Shown in pieces: positions 7,920-12,588 of a stretch of 64,000 nucleotides of DNA (positions are counted from its first letter, which is position 1; each line of letters opens with the position of its first letter). Both the position numbers and the translations under genes were made by a program. Below the pieces are notes generated by a model, which saw nothing but the letters and a program-made list of their open reading frames with translations, was not told where the DNA came from and made no database searches. The stretch spans positions 62,001 through 126,000 of the forward strand of contig JAQGHR010000157.1 in assembly GCA_028291545.1 (NCBI GenBank), given 5' to 3'. The DNA comes from Planctomycetota bacterium (lineage in GTDB: Bacteria; Planctomycetota; Planctomycetia; Isosphaerales; Isosphaeraceae).

Positions 7920-8068
7920 GGGCGGGGCTCCATTCGACCGATCGCGTCGGCGGGTGGTGATTTCCCGCGACTCGGGCGACCGCGCCCTTGATTCGACCGG
8001 CCGCGCCTGGCACCGTCAATGGTTCAGTCCGGGGACGCTCCCGGCCGATGAGCAGACTCGCCCGGCTA

Positions 8069-8109
8069 TGCCTTTTTATTGGCACCTGCCTTTTTTCGTA
8101 ACGTCTGCC
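8069..8109. repeat. Third TGCCTTTTTATT copy with inverted partner sequence
   Basis: TGCCTTTTTATT at 8069-8080 is a direct copy of 7498-7509. About 20 nt on, AACGTCTGCC at 8100-8109 is the exact inverse of GGCAGACGTT at 7517-7526. The two intergenic gaps flanking the first small membrane gene thus carry matching sequence, as if the spacer had been duplicated and inverted. Confidence 0.5.
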
Positions 8110-8140
8110 CGAGAATGGCGAGAGCTGCGTAGCGTTCCGT

Positions 8141-8569
8141 TCACTCCGTCTCCGGCGGGTCGGGGGCGACGGGGAGCCAGGGGTAGCGGGCGGCACGCTC
8201 GTATTTCTTGCGTCGCAGTTCGTGGAAAAGGATGATACGGCCGTATTGCTTCTCGGCGGCGTGTCTCTCCTGGATCGCCTCGGTGTAGTCTTGATGGAAG
8301 CCGACCCGATACCGAACCCTCCCCCCGGAAATTGCCGGCCCGGACGGAACCAGGCTCGCCACCCACTCCGTCGCAAGTCTGCCGGACGGCCACGCGCCGG
8401 CGGAGCGTCCCTCCAGGATCTTGCGAGCATAGCCCTCCATCCCCGCGTGATAGTCGGCCCGTTGCCTGTAGTGAGCGTGTCGGGTCTTGAGAATGATGGC
8501 CGTGAACACAATGGCGGCAATCGCCACGGCGGCCATCATCCGCCGCACGGTGAATCGGAGTCGGGGCAT
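8141..8569 (-). CDS. Small membrane protein, MPRLRFT family (copy 2)
   Basis: 142 residues from the conserved MPRLRFTVRRMM start at 8569; ATGs 6 and 18 bases upstream are alternatives. One N-terminal membrane helix (AAVAIAAIVFTAIIL) is followed by a soluble, charged tail of about 110 residues with several Tyr, Arg and His. The N-terminal 20 residues match copies 1 and 3, while the tails are unrelated in sequence. Function unknown. Confidence 0.75.
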   Translation of the reverse strand: MPRLRFTVRRMMAAVAIAAIVFTAIILKTRHAHYRQRADYHAGMEGYARKILEGRSAGAWPSGRLATEWVASLVPSGPAISGGRVRYRVGFHQDYTEAIQERHAAEKQYGRIILFHELRRKKYERAARYPWLPVAPDPPETE

Positions 8570-8627
8570 CCGCATGACGGTACTCACTCTGGCTTTGGCG
8601 GGCCGGGCACGACGGGGCTTTGGCGGC

Positions 8628-8936
8628 CTACTCGTATCTCTTCAGTCGGTTCCTTGTCCGGTGCAGCGCCTCGAGGTATGTCGCGAGAATCGACTCCTGC
8701 GCGCCGATCTCGCGCTGCAACTGCGCCCTTCCGGATAGGTCGCTTCTGCCCGCATAGTCCTTGAGCTTGGCGATCGAGGTCCTACTTCTTTCGATCATCT
8801 CGGCGTACCGGGCTGCGCTGGCGCGGAGATCCGAGATCATCATCGCCCGTGCAGCCCACACCAACAGCCCCATCAACACCGCCACGACCGCCACCACGAC
8901 CATCATCCGCCGCACGGTGAACCGGAATCGGGGCAT
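8628..8936 (-). CDS. Small membrane protein, MPRFRFT family (copy 3)
   Basis: 102 residues starting MPRFRFTVRRMMVVVAVVAV at 8936. After one membrane helix (to about residue 30) the tail (about 35-100) is a likely coiled coil rich in Ala, Arg, Leu and Glu (AEMIERSRTSIAKLKD, LQREIGAQESILATYLEALH). This is the third tandem member, in the same direction, 58 bp from copy 2. Function unknown; the coiled coil suggests a periplasm- or cytosol-facing interaction module. Confidence 0.75.
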   Translation of the reverse strand: MPRFRFTVRRMMVVVAVVAVLMGLLVWAARAMMISDLRASAARYAEMIERSRTSIAKLKDYAGRSDLSGRAQLQREIGAQESILATYLEALHRTRNRLKRYE

Positions 8937-9153
8937 GGAGGTGCCTGCTTCATGTTTGCCGATCGACCGAGCGTCGAGTTGAGGATACTCCCTCGGGCAA
9001 ACCGGGACACGACCCAAAGCCGGTATTCGCGCCGATCGCGCCGCTTGCAGCCACACGGGCCCGGCGGCTAGTCTGAGCGGGTCGCATCGGGCGAGCCGGG
9101 CCGGTCGTGCCCGGCGACGGGGATTTGTGGGCGAGATACCGGGAGAGTGATCC

Positions 9154-9684
9154 ATGTCGGACGTGCGCAGCGGCGAAGTGACGATGAAGGGCAACCCGAT
9201 CGATCTGGTCGGCCCCAAGCTCAAAGCCGGAGACAAGGCGCCGGATTTCACTGTCGTGGGCGCGGGCCTCTCGGTCGTCAAATTGGCCGACACCGCGGGC
9301 AAGGCCCGGCTGTTCAGCGTCGTGCCGTCGCTCGACACGCCGGTTTGCAACATCCAGACCAAGAAATTTGCCGAGCAATTGAACAGCCTGGGAGACAAGG
9401 TCGCCGCCTATACCGTCAGCCTCGACCTGCCGTTCGCCATGGCCCGATTCTGCGGCGAGGCCAAGATCAACAACATGGCCAACCTGTCCGATTGCCACGA
9501 TCATAGCTTCGGCAAGAACTACGGCGTCCTGATCCAGGGGTTGCCCATTCCCCTGCTGGCACGGGCGATCGTCGTGGTCGATCCGTCGAACACGATCACC
9601 CATTTCGAGCTGGTCCCCGAGATCGCGACCGAGCCGAATTACGACGCCGCGATGTCGGCGCTGAAAGCGGCGGCCGGGGCCTGA
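9154..9684 (+). CDS. tpx: Thiol peroxidase (atypical 2-Cys peroxiredoxin)
   Basis: 176 residues, typical of Tpx plus a short N-terminal extension; an internal Met at residue 11 (9184) is the canonical position. The peroxidatic Cys is 65 in PSLDTPVC and the resolving Cys is 100 in FAMARFCGEAKI, the spacing of Tpx. It reduces hydrogen peroxide and alkyl peroxides with thioredoxin as reductant, in the cytosol or periplasm. It is transcribed alone, divergently from the small membrane genes. Confidence 0.95.
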   Translation: MSDVRSGEVTMKGNPIDLVGPKLKAGDKAPDFTVVGAGLSVVKLADTAGKARLFSVVPSLDTPVCNIQTKKFAEQLNSLGDKVAAYTVSLDLPFAMARFCGEAKINNMANLSDCHDHSFGKNYGVLIQGLPIPLLARAIVVVDPSNTITHFELVPEIATEPNYDAAMSALKAAAGA

Positions 9685-9976
9685 TGACGCTCGTCTGGAG
9701 CGAGCACCCGCCGAGCGCCGCCGGAGAAATCGGTCGTGGCGGTCGGCCGGTGTTTGTTGCGGACGAGTCACCGGTTATGAAGATCAGATCTGAGTTTCCG
9801 AGTCGCATTTTCGCCCAGATCGAAAGCCCCTCAGTTTTCCCGATCAGCGGCCCGCCAGGTCGCGATGTTATTATCGAGATCCGGGTTCGTAACTCGTCGA
9901 AGGCGGCCCGGATCGTGGGAGAAACGGACTCGGAACCTCACAGGGAATCAGGTTCCGGACCCGAGACGACGACCAA

Positions 9977-10056
9977 TCTGGGTGGCACTCGCAGCTTGCC
10001 TGCCAGTGGCTTCGCTCGGACGAACACTGGCAGGCAAGCTGCGAGTGCCACCCAGA
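9977..10056. repeat. Long perfect palindrome, 32-bp arms
   Basis: Positions 9977-10008 pair perfectly with 10025-10056 (32 bp), leaving a 16-nt loop that itself contains TTCG/CGAA pairing at 10011-10014 and 10021-10024. The left arm contains GGTGGCACTCGCAGCTTG. Arms this long and exact cannot be ordinary terminators and have no T-tract. It fits a dispersed palindromic repeat of REP/miniature-element type between convergent genes. Confidence 0.85.
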
Positions 10057-10146
10057 ATCCTGATGCCAGCGTCAAACTGGCCTCATGAGCCACCGGACGA
10101 TTGCGGATCGTGGCGCGGGCCGTCAATCGGCGGGACGGGAACCGGG

Positions 10147-10175
10147 TTGCCGGGGTCGGGGTATTCCCCCGGCAA
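10147..10175 (-). terminator. Hairpin downstream of the DUF1080 gene
   Basis: TTGCCGGGG (10147-10155) pairs with CCCCGGCAA (10167-10175), 9 bp, 11-nt loop. It lies about 40 nt past the stop of the DUF1080 gene on the minus strand. There is no T-run, so it is only a candidate terminator. Confidence 0.35.
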
Positions 10176-10213
10176 GGCCGAGGCCACGGGAATTTCCACC
10201 GAATCACCGCGCG

Positions 10214-10897
10214 TCACTTTCCCTCGTTCAGCGGCACGATCCAGATATTGCGATACTGCACGTCGTTCCCGTGGTCCTGGAGCAGCAGGGGTCCCGGCTC
10301 GCTTTCCTTGCCGCCCCAGTTCGCGGGGCAGGGGACGATCTCGGCGTCGTCGATGATGGTGATGCCATTCTGAACGACGGTCAAACGGGTCTTCTTGACG
10401 AGCTTATCCCCGTCGTACTTGGCCTTGTGGAGCGTGACGTCGTACGTCTGCCACTGGAGCGGGGGCTTGCAGGCGTTGAACTTGGGGATGACCTGCTTGT
10501 AGATCGCGCCGCAGTCGTTGTCCTGCGGCTTCAGGCCGTAGGAATCGAGGACCTGGAGTTCGTACAGCCCGGCGAGATAGACGCCGCTATTGCCTCGGCC
10601 CTGTCCGGTGGCCTTGGGCATGTACGGCACGTTGAATTCCAGATGGAGTTTGAAGCCGTCGAACTTGTCCTTGGTCATGATGTCGCCGGTCTTGGGTCCG
10701 ACAGTGAAGACGCCGTCGCTGACCGGCCAGGAGGCGGGCTTGCCGTCGCGGTGGATCCAGCCTTCAAGGCTCTTGCCGTTGAACAGGACTTTCGCCCCTT
10801 CGGGTGGCTTGGCATTCAGGGTGGAGTCATTCGGCTTGGGGTCCGCGGGCGCGAACATGCCAACGGCCAGCGCGGCGGCCAGGCAGAAGAGGCGCAT
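10214..10897 (-). CDS. Secreted DUF1080 (3-keto-disaccharide hydrolase-like) protein
   Basis: About 227 residues from the ATG at 10897, which begins a signal peptide (MRLFCLAAALAVGMFAPA). The remainder is one DUF1080 concanavalin-like beta-sandwich: LFNGKSLEGW near the start, then GDIMTKDKFDGFKLHLEF, RGNSGVYLAGLYELQVLDSY and WQTYDVTLH, all characteristic. Some family members hydrolyse 3-keto-glycosides; many planctomycete paralogues have unknown substrates. Exported to the periplasm or surface. It stands alone between tpx and the fetAB-type pair. Confidence 0.93.
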   Translation of the reverse strand: MRLFCLAAALAVGMFAPADPKPNDSTLNAKPPEGAKVLFNGKSLEGWIHRDGKPASWPVSDGVFTVGPKTGDIMTKDKFDGFKLHLEFNVPYMPKATGQGRGNSGVYLAGLYELQVLDSYGLKPQDNDCGAIYKQVIPKFNACKPPLQWQTYDVTLHKAKYDGDKLVKKTRLTVVQNGITIIDDAEIVPCPANWGGKESEPGPLLLQDHGNDVQYRNIWIVPLNEGK

Positions 10898-10993
10898 GGT
10901 GAAAACTCTCTGGGCAGGATGGTCACATCGAGGCACACGACACGGCAGGCCGTTCAGTGTAGCTGAGCCGGCGAGGATCTCAAGCCCGTCGAT

Positions 10994-11788
10994 TCACTCC
11001 CCGTCCCGCGCGGCAAGTCGTTCAATGCGGAGCTGGTCCCAGGGCGTGAAATAGGTCCGCAACCGGACGGCCAGGAGCGCCAGAGTGCTGAGACAGACCG
11101 TCCCCGTGATGCCGAGGTAGATGAGAATCTGATAGCGGATGGCCTCCTGGACGGGAGCGCCGGCGAGCAGTTGCCCCGTCGTCATTCCGGGAATGGCGAC
11201 GATCCCGGCGATCATCATGTTGTTGATCGGCGGCGTGAGTGCCGCCCGAACCGCCGCGCGAAGTGCAGGCAAGGCGGCGTCCCGCGACGACGCCCCCAAC
11301 GCCAGACGAAGTTCGACGCGATCTCGTTCCGCTCTCAGATCGCTCTCCAGGCGTTCCGCCGCCAGGGCTACACCCGTGACACTATTACCCAGAATCATGC
11401 CGAGCAGCGGGATCACCACATGAGGGTCGTACCAGGGATCGACTCGCAGCCCGAGCCGAAGGGATACGGACATGACAAGCACAATTCCAAGCCCCATCGC
11501 GACGAACGCTTCCAGGCGGAGTGGCCAGCCCCCGCCTTTCAGCCGCGATCCGACCGTGTGCGCGGAGACGAGTAGCATGACCAGGGCGATCGCGCCGACG
11601 AATGCGGGGTTTCGCGTGGTGAAGAGCCATTGGAGCACGACTCCCAGCAGCAGCAACTGGGCTACGAGTCTCGCCAGGGCGACGAGCAAGGGCCGCACCT
11701 GGCCGAGCCGAAGGGCGGAGAGGATTGCGACGGAGAAAAGCACCGGCGCGGAGGAGTAGAGCAAACCGGTCCATGTAGGCGAGTTCAT
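10994..11788 (-). CDS. fetB: FetB-type ABC transporter permease (UPF0014)
   Basis: 264 residues with about seven membrane helices. The ATG at 11788 overlaps the TGA of the ATPase gene by 4 bp. Family features are GMILGNSVTGVALAAERL, LALGASSRDAALPALRAAVRAALTPPINNMMIAGIVAIPGMTTGQLLAG, recognisable here in shorter form around residues 125-215, and the final helix before LRTYFTPWDQL. In E. coli FetAB exports iron and helps resist oxidative stress; the substrate here is inferred from family. The pair forms a two-gene operon. Confidence 0.9.
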   Translation of the reverse strand: MNSPTWTGLLYSSAPVLFSVAILSALRLGQVRPLLVALARLVAQLLLLGVVLQWLFTTRNPAFVGAIALVMLLVSAHTVGSRLKGGGWPLRLEAFVAMGLGIVLVMSVSLRLGLRVDPWYDPHVVIPLLGMILGNSVTGVALAAERLESDLRAERDRVELRLALGASSRDAALPALRAAVRAALTPPINNMMIAGIVAIPGMTTGQLLAGAPVQEAIRYQILIYLGITGTVCLSTLALLAVRLRTYFTPWDQLRIERLAARDGE

Positions 11789-12588
11789 GGTACGATCTCG
11801 GCCTCGACTACGGGCAACGCGGACTCCCAGAACCGGGAGTCGACCCTGGCCAGGAGCTCGCCAATCGGGCCCTGATCCACGACCCGGCCGCGATCGAGGA
11901 CGACGGCCGTCTCTCCCAGCATCGGGGCGTGGCCTCGATGATGGGTCACGGCGATGGTGCGAAGTCCTGTGGTCTCGACTCGCTCCGAGAGGATGTCGGC
12001 GATCCGGCGCGCGGAGCCCGGGTCGAGGGCGGAGGTTGGCTCGTCGAGCGCGAGGATCTCCGGGTCCGCTCCCAGGGCCACGGCCAGGGCCAACCTCTGG
12101 CGCTCGCCTCCGGAAAGACCCGAGGCGTCCCGGCCCAGCCATCGCGGTTCGAGGCCGAATTCAAGCAGACTTTCGGCCATCACGTCCGGACCCGGCGGCG
12201 TCCAGCCACGGACCGTGAACGGATAGGCAAGATTCTCGGCTACGGAGCCGGGCAGGGGCCGAGGGGATTGGAAAACCAGGCCGACGCCGCTTCGGACGGC
12301 TCGCACCGAGAGATCGGTAAACGCCGTCTCTCCGATTCGGACGTGTCCACCCGAGGGATCCTCAAGCCGATTCAGCAAGCGGAGGAGTGTGCTCTTGCCC
12401 GAGCCGGAGGCCCCGACAAGCACGTACCGACGCCCAGGCTCGAAAGCAAGGTCGATTCCATCGAGGATGGCGGCGCCTCCCCGACGCATGCGAACGGCCT
12501 CAAGGATCAGTGCGCGATCTCGCGGCCAGGCCGGATCTCGGCCGGGGGATCTGCCGTATCTGGCGCGAAACGGTCCCAGGCGAAGCAT
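11785..12588 (-). CDS. fetA: FetA-type ABC transporter ATP-binding protein
   Basis: 267 residues from MLRLGPFRARYG at 12588; the frame extends to 12783 but without ABC-like sequence. Walker A is GASGSGKST, the Q-loop is VFQSPRPLPGSV, the signature is LSGGERQ, Walker B is ILALDEPTS and the switch His is in VTHH. An unusual ~30-residue N-terminal tail precedes the ABC domain. It powers the FetB-type permease encoded with a 4-bp overlap downstream. Divergent from the grpE-like gene, sharing a 157-bp spacer. Confidence 0.88.
   Translation of the reverse strand: MLRLGPFRARYGRSPGRDPAWPRDRALILEAVRMRRGGAAILDGIDLAFEPGRRYVLVGASGSGKSTLLRLLNRLEDPSGGHVRIGETAFTDLSVRAVRSGVGLVFQSPRPLPGSVAENLAYPFTVRGWTPPGPDVMAESLLEFGLEPRWLGRDASGLSGGERQRLALAVALGADPEILALDEPTSALDPGSARRIADILSERVETTGLRTIAVTHHRGHAPMLGETAVVLDRGRVVDQGPIGELLARVDSRFWESALPVVEAEIVP

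Follow-up and report, generated by a model that had tools for sequence, protein, structure and literature searches.

REPINs of Pseudomonas fluorescens SBW25 are described as two inverted REPs that are separated by a variable spacer and together form one hairpin, and as dispersed, mainly extragenic sequences that also occur as singlets and are linked to a RAYT (PMC3116915). In the REPtrons of TnpAREP/RAYT, an HUH/Y1 transposase gene is flanked by REPs carrying a tetranucleotide directly 5′ of the hairpin (PMC6006769; PMC8266576); the canonical form of this tag is GT[AG]G, and ‘double foot’ single hairpins are reported as well (PMC6006769). The same source describes subclass 2.6 and class 3 as also lacking GT[AG]G, class 3 having the foot CnGA and occurring in Planctomycetes. 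Palindromes tagged with GTAG or CGTC, often arranged as dimers, have been reported from Planctomycetes too, and R. baltica is among the species with several tagged REP families (PMC3733652). REPINs, RAYTs, and tagged REPs are already known in Planctomycetes, the literature found on REPs or REP-associated transposases of this group being PMC3733652 and PMC6006769.

The window analyzed here, a stretch of 64,000 nt from a Planctomycetota assembly (GCA_028291545.1), carries at 9977..10056 an element that is very probably a REPIN, composed of two REP units that each consist of a GTGG or GTGC tag plus a CAC...GTG hairpin, that face each other over a short spacer and that are RAYT-linked in other genomes. 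It shares the features of the SBW25 REPINs listed above, with a length of 80 bp compared to the 71 bp between the 16-mers of the GI doublet, but differs from them in its stem and loop sequences, in its GTGG/GTGC tag and in that no RAYT was seen in the assembly (PMC3116915). With the REPtrons it has in common the Y1 transposase gene flanked by REPs, the tetranucleotide directly 5′ of the hairpin and the double-foot single hairpins, whereas the fourth base of the tag is C in most units here (PMC6006769; PMC8266576). As in PMC3733652, the units are tagged palindromes that are often dimeric.

The palindrome in the window and its copies in the host assembly

An inverted-repeat search indicated two arms of 32 nt at 9977..10008 and 10025..10056, which are 100% complementary and lie 16 nt apart, and the spacer between them (10009..10024) was found by repeat search and folding to contain a further 4-bp stem; the 32-bp perfect palindrome with a structured loop described in the first-pass annotation was thus confirmed. 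Folded as single-stranded DNA, 9977..10056 reached −50.2 kcal/mol compared to −18.94 (sd 2.73) for dinucleotide shuffles, none of 200 of which equaled it. Repeat search, folding, BLASTN copies, and arm covariation together define this stretch as a whole inverted REP doublet. Two units are placed in it face to face. The GTGG tag of the first, a putative guide recognized from the sequence and from tag conservation, is at 9982..9985 on the plus strand, 5′ of the hairpin unit CACTCGCAGCTTGCCTGCCAGTG at 9986..10008 (plus strand; hairpin pattern and folding); the second hairpin unit is inverted at 10025..10047 (minus strand; hairpin pattern), and its GTGG tag, CCAC on the plus strand, is at 10048..10051 (minus strand). 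Both feet read GGGTGG, so that the canonical 5′ GT[AG]G tag is present on both units of this copy.

The inner stem of CACTCGCAGCTTGCCTGCCAGTG carries one C-C mismatch, and its fold of −5.2 kcal/mol compares with −11.3 kcal/mol for a public relative. A G-to-C change in one arm is mirrored in the other (pair 16-80), which leaves the long hairpin perfect, and the same private change costs each inner hairpin of the window copy one pair, so this copy may bind poorly. The arm motif GGTGGCACTCGC, which had been put forward as the mark of a family, is indeed present but proved private to the window copy, the others reading GGTG[GC]CACTGGC or near. An Rfam search of the window returned no family at gathering scores, and a tRNA search of 8000-12000 found none.

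The element sits in a 529-nt gap on which two genes converge, as had been annotated: a thiol peroxidase gene on its left (9154..9684, plus strand; NCBIfam PRK00522.1, 191.6 bits, cut-off 123) and a 3-keto-disaccharide hydrolase-domain gene on its right (10214..10936, minus strand; PF06439, 141.9 bits, cut-off 26.8). BLASTN comparison indicated that the right flank (10057..10091) is partly common to four other copies, on C21, C105, C1, and C36 (L009, L010, L016, and L031), and some copies may therefore have moved as a longer composite. To the left lies a second, unrelated dispersed repeat (9899..9958; longest matches 9837-9973), found at at least 18 other places in the assembly, a lower bound as 40 of 86 candidates were scored; the stretch 9899-9972 folded no better than shuffles. 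In two other loci with this repeat (C36 and C111), the hairpin family also occurs within 200 nt, and at L015, L019, and L029 the hairpin adjoins a repeat of the GTTCCCACG...CGTGGGAAC type, inside which it may lie in L029.

The host assembly comprises 6.0 Mb in 164 contigs and is 77.7% complete. BLASTN with a 93-bp query (47 rows merged) placed the unit at 24 distinct sites including the window, and a pattern search added two (C51 and C21:40294), giving 26 in total; C114:37318 and C161:29137, with three mismatches each, were left out, since the control of that pattern has 8 matches. The sequence is thus not unique in the genome, and the proposal of a dispersed REP/MITE-like family was right in kind. 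At 15 of the 26 places the inverted doublet is complete, with a spacer of 16-27 nt, and one further doublet (L027) is cut by a contig end. Single hairpins with a tag on both sides occur at L028, L029, L030, L031, and L039; from their sequences they look like doublets that have lost the middle between two CTGCCAGTG copies, and an inverted dimer that loses its center by deletion has been suggested as a possible origin of ‘double foot’ REPs (PMC6006769). Single or decayed units are found at L022, L024, L025, L026, and L038. When 25 copies were placed against rough ORF calls, 20 were intergenic; L018, L023, L026, and L028 overlap the 5′ end of an ORF, the longest start having been used in calling, and L020 lies ~300 nt into an ORF which extends almost to the end of a contig. 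By the same calls, copies at L010, L015, L017, L021, and L038 also lie between convergent genes, those at L009, L011, L013, L014, L025, and L039 between tandem genes and that at L012 between divergent genes. Two properties of REPINs were thus both observed: one genome holds many dispersed and mainly extragenic copies, and the two inverted REPs can fold, with the spacer between them, into one hairpin. A separate GTAG-type inverted doublet with 28-nt arms of 93% complementarity and a 15-nt loop is present at L028:5124-5194 and may represent another REPIN-like family of this genome.

The perfection of the arms had been taken to suggest recent activity or gene conversion; the argument for recent activity weakens once the copies are compared. 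Across the 15 doublets, both-sided changes were found at 7 of 29 arm pairs, with 97.5% of cells paired; in 500 shuffles, which ignore relatedness, none was as high for four of five measures and two were for the fifth, and sliding the arm pairings by 1-3 columns as a control left 0 or 1 both-sided pair. The inner hairpins of the same doublets covary far less (2 of 18 pairs, a level reached by 19 of 500 shuffles). Five of the 15 doublets are mismatch-free in the 29 core pairs, so that perfect arms alone do not indicate recent insertion. We read the covariation as the correction of one arm by the other, or the copying of a folded form, rather than as selection on the inner hairpins of the window copy; arms that change together fit template-switch correction or gene conversion as well as they fit recent insertion.

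The tagged hairpin and one clade of Y1 transposases

The repeated unit consists of a CAC...GTG hairpin with GTG[G/C] immediately 5′ of it. In 80 public loci, scanned with nothing required outside the hairpin, 81 of 85 units carried GTGC (54) or GTGG (27) directly 5′ and four had other bases, while the tag stood on the wrong side of the hairpin, judged by loop orientation, in 0 of the 85. Among 41 units of the host genome, counted with a hand-made pattern accepting the variants seen, 39 were tagged (23 GTGC, 16 GTGG) and two had other bases; the canonical GT[AG]G tag is accordingly not kept across the family. Both tags can occur on the two arms of one doublet (L011 and L023). In a set for which the tag was required, conservation around the units faded to the left of −6 and to the right of +1, and an inverted tagged partner lay within 100 nt for 24 of 88 units.

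Y1_Tnp genes were gathered from the host (4), from six relatives (16) and from eight genomes with the unit (60), and their flanks showed a pattern match at 14 of the 80, 12 of which were labeled for a tree after L193 and L234 had been dropped as poor matches (L234 has tagged hairpins of another stem). In the tree of 79 of the 80 genes, ten formed one clade with a support of 100/99 and a tagged hairpin at 10/10, a grouping made after the flanks had been seen; two of the 12 labeled genes (L066 and L218) lie outside it. Because the clade was first noticed through its flanks, a profile (A1) was built from nine of the ten members, omitting L207, the frame of which ends at a stop, and was used to search 392 and 45 genomes, whereupon the flanks of unseen members were read. 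All 21 new matches of at least 250 bits were tested, several of them from one genus or genome, and a tagged CAC...GTG hairpin was found near 18 (12/14 plus 6/7); L262 was counted through a second hairpin, its CACTGG unit having a stem of only 6. Of the three misses (L251, L256, and L313), the first two do have such hairpins, but with an altered tag or altered ends. Tagged hairpins were near 14 of the 37 weaker relatives tested (158-245 bits; 10/24 plus 4/13), a part of all such matches, and near 6 of 70 other Y1_Tnp genes, three of these six (L202, L216, and L234) being near relatives of the clade; L246 among the 70 was also counted among the 37, as L275. Flanks were read to 350 nt downstream of profile matches and to 650 nt downstream of Pfam matches, which end earlier in the gene, and the transposase counts in the 392 genomes are lower bounds, as only 8 candidates per genome were scored.

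In the commonest layout, a tag-hairpin lies upstream of the gene and an inverted hairpin-tag downstream. The 27 tagged hairpins of the 14-gene set carried G at −6 in 27/27 and G or T at −5 in 26/27, neither being required by the pattern. As a density control over all 80 genes, 44 CAC hairpins were counted in 101,787 nt beside the genes versus 6 in 95,899 nt of more distant sequence from the transposase loci. Two clade members tested passed the NCBIfam model REP_Tyr_transpos (NF047646) with 89.7 and 90.5 bits against a cut-off of 80, and the best solved-structure match of the clade was 4er8, TnpArep. An HUH-type H-x-H motif was present in 9/9 aligned members and Y-x-H-x-N-P in 8/9, the ninth (L070; G008:C22:11398-11961) having H for the presumed catalytic Y and hairpins beside it that differ from those dispersed in G008. 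These results showed that the tagged hairpins are closely linked to one clade of RAYT/TnpAREP in other genomes.

The REP-associated transposase that the first-pass annotation had advised looking for was thus located in other genomes but not in the host, where the profile search gave no clade member at E≤1e-10 with all 37 candidates scored; the four Y1_Tnp genes of the host belong to other clades and are without the unit. A search of the 80 public loci with an HMM built on 14 mixed Y1 proteins recovered no transposase, and its positive control detected 5/5 known genes. Across the 392 genomes, the transposase co-occurred with the CACTGGC unit (8/18 vs. 10/374, p=1e-7); within the host’s class no significance was reached (6/15 vs. 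5/25, p=0.27), perhaps because stems differ. Two Y1 transposase genes were observed beside other repeats. One of the four host genes, at L028:1501-2293 (C30), lies between the arms of a 34-bp inverted repeat that has no relation to the hairpin and resembles the TIR-associated tyrosine transposases of PMC3733652, and another is adjoined by repeated GACCCCTTTTCTTCCCC units (L037:3448-3546).

Beyond the host, at least 110 stretches of public genomes contain the core CACTGGCRGCTYGCCYGCCAGTG, and among the 80 matches listed all but one are planctomycete-titled (mostly Phycisphaer-), one being titled Armatimonadetes. GGTGSCACTGGC hairpins were found in 18 of 392 genomes of the host’s phylum, the backward control giving two matches in all. 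BLASTN of the 93-bp element in 39 relatives gave no match, whereas hairpin patterns did find relatives. G041, from the host’s family, has 149 matches to a looser pattern and high-scoring clade transposases, while G018 of the same genus has neither, although low counts from this pattern mean little, as its control matches reach up to 7 per genome. Plasmid and phage searches for the element gave no match; three stretches of viral contigs do match. IMG/VR contig L309 holds two units (1989-2015 and 2909-2935).

Fourteen distinct 23-nt hairpins from seven genomes plus the host keep the tag, the length and a GCTYG loop, and their stems differ at four pairs, always on both sides; the full pairing (112/112 cells) arises partly by construction, since 12 of them come from transposase flanks, where they were found as perfect hairpins. 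At the level of sequence, this set shows that stems vary under one recurring tag and loop. The loops beside the transposases of G238, G309, and G318 are seen again in dispersed copies within the respective genome; a counter-example is G008, with CACTGGTGA-type hairpins beside the transposase versus CACTGGCTCTG in dispersed copies. Very different stems (CACGGGC, CACTGACAAAC, CACGCCCA, and CACGGGTT) accompany the tagged hairpins at the transposase genes of L263, L267, L272, L273, L279, L281, and L282, suggesting several separate REP families under one tag.

Alternative explanations of the element

A bidirectional terminator or RNA 3′-end hairpin, immobile and maintained for its RNA structure, would suit the very stable hairpin and the position of this and several other copies between convergent genes, and an effect of REPs on mRNA stability and termination has been described (PMC6006769). 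However, no T-run follows either arm, so that the G+C-rich stem plus T-run of an intrinsic terminator is lacking, and a terminator scan of 9600-10300 listed two other weak sites and not the element. Copies also lie between tandem and divergent genes, and the same unit is found at loci that are otherwise unrelated and next to transposase genes, which makes a function in termination very unlikely as the explanation of the element. As a second alternative, a classical (DDE) insertion sequence with terminal inverted repeats could have given rise to the element as a MITE, which would likewise be dispersed, non-coding and bounded by such repeats. The conserved part here, however, is a tagged hairpin used twice rather than a simple TIR pair, and in relatives the gene linked to it encodes a REP-type Y1 (HUH) transposase; we regard this origin as extremely improbable.

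A different question is whether the family, its identity as a REPIN being granted, is a fossil that is immobile in this host and has arms alike only by template-switch correction. No clade RAYT is in the assembly, which is weak evidence given a completeness of only 77.7%; singlets and single-hairpin forms exist, and the private change in both arms of the window copy weakens each inner hairpin and not the long one. Set against this are the five doublets with mismatch-free core arms, and we consider a fossil family possible rather than probable. Under the REPIN reading, when the DNA becomes single-stranded, a RAYT of the clade would bind the hairpins, would read the tag as a guide and nick beside them, by analogy with described RAYTs (PMC8266576), and would move or copy the doublet to other, mostly intergenic sites. 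The host RAYT may be encoded in the missing 22% of the assembly or may have been lost, in which case the copies would now be immobile. The perfect arms would most simply be kept alike by template switching between the arms or by copying of the folded form.

The putative guide tag and its meaning for the family

It is in the tag that the family departs from the published rule: most units have GTGC in place of the canonical GT[AG]G, a variant that may have been described earlier in figures or supplements. In the text of PMC3733652 and PMC6006769, figures and supplements aside, no word starts with GGTG or GTGC, and the degenerate tags in the text of PMC3733652 (GYAG, GYRG, GTRG, GTMG, and GTGG), its Figure 1 consensuses aside, all keep the last G, unlike GTGC. 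For what appears to be the Marinomonas enzyme, cutting was at CC after GTAG had been changed to GTGG and at GA or GT after a change to GTAC (PMC8266576); by analogy, cuts at G-starting sites would be expected of a natural GTGC guide. We tentatively propose, with somewhat less than even confidence, that in a RAYT lineage across the phylum the fourth base of the guide tag has naturally changed from G to C with both tolerated, so that G-starting dinucleotides should be cut, like with the engineered GTAC guide in vitro, and that each RAYT would track a rapidly changing stem of its own, the CAC...GTG at the stem base remaining fixed.

A REPIN accounts for a recurrent planctomycete hairpin that could pass for a terminator. 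As far as surveyed, most experimental work on RAYTs and REPs concerns Proteobacteria; a clade outside them whose hairpins vary and whose guide occurs in two natural variants would offer a ready set for studying how guide and hairpin choose the cut site, and the same clade could be used to follow how a transposase and its non-autonomous repeats change together.
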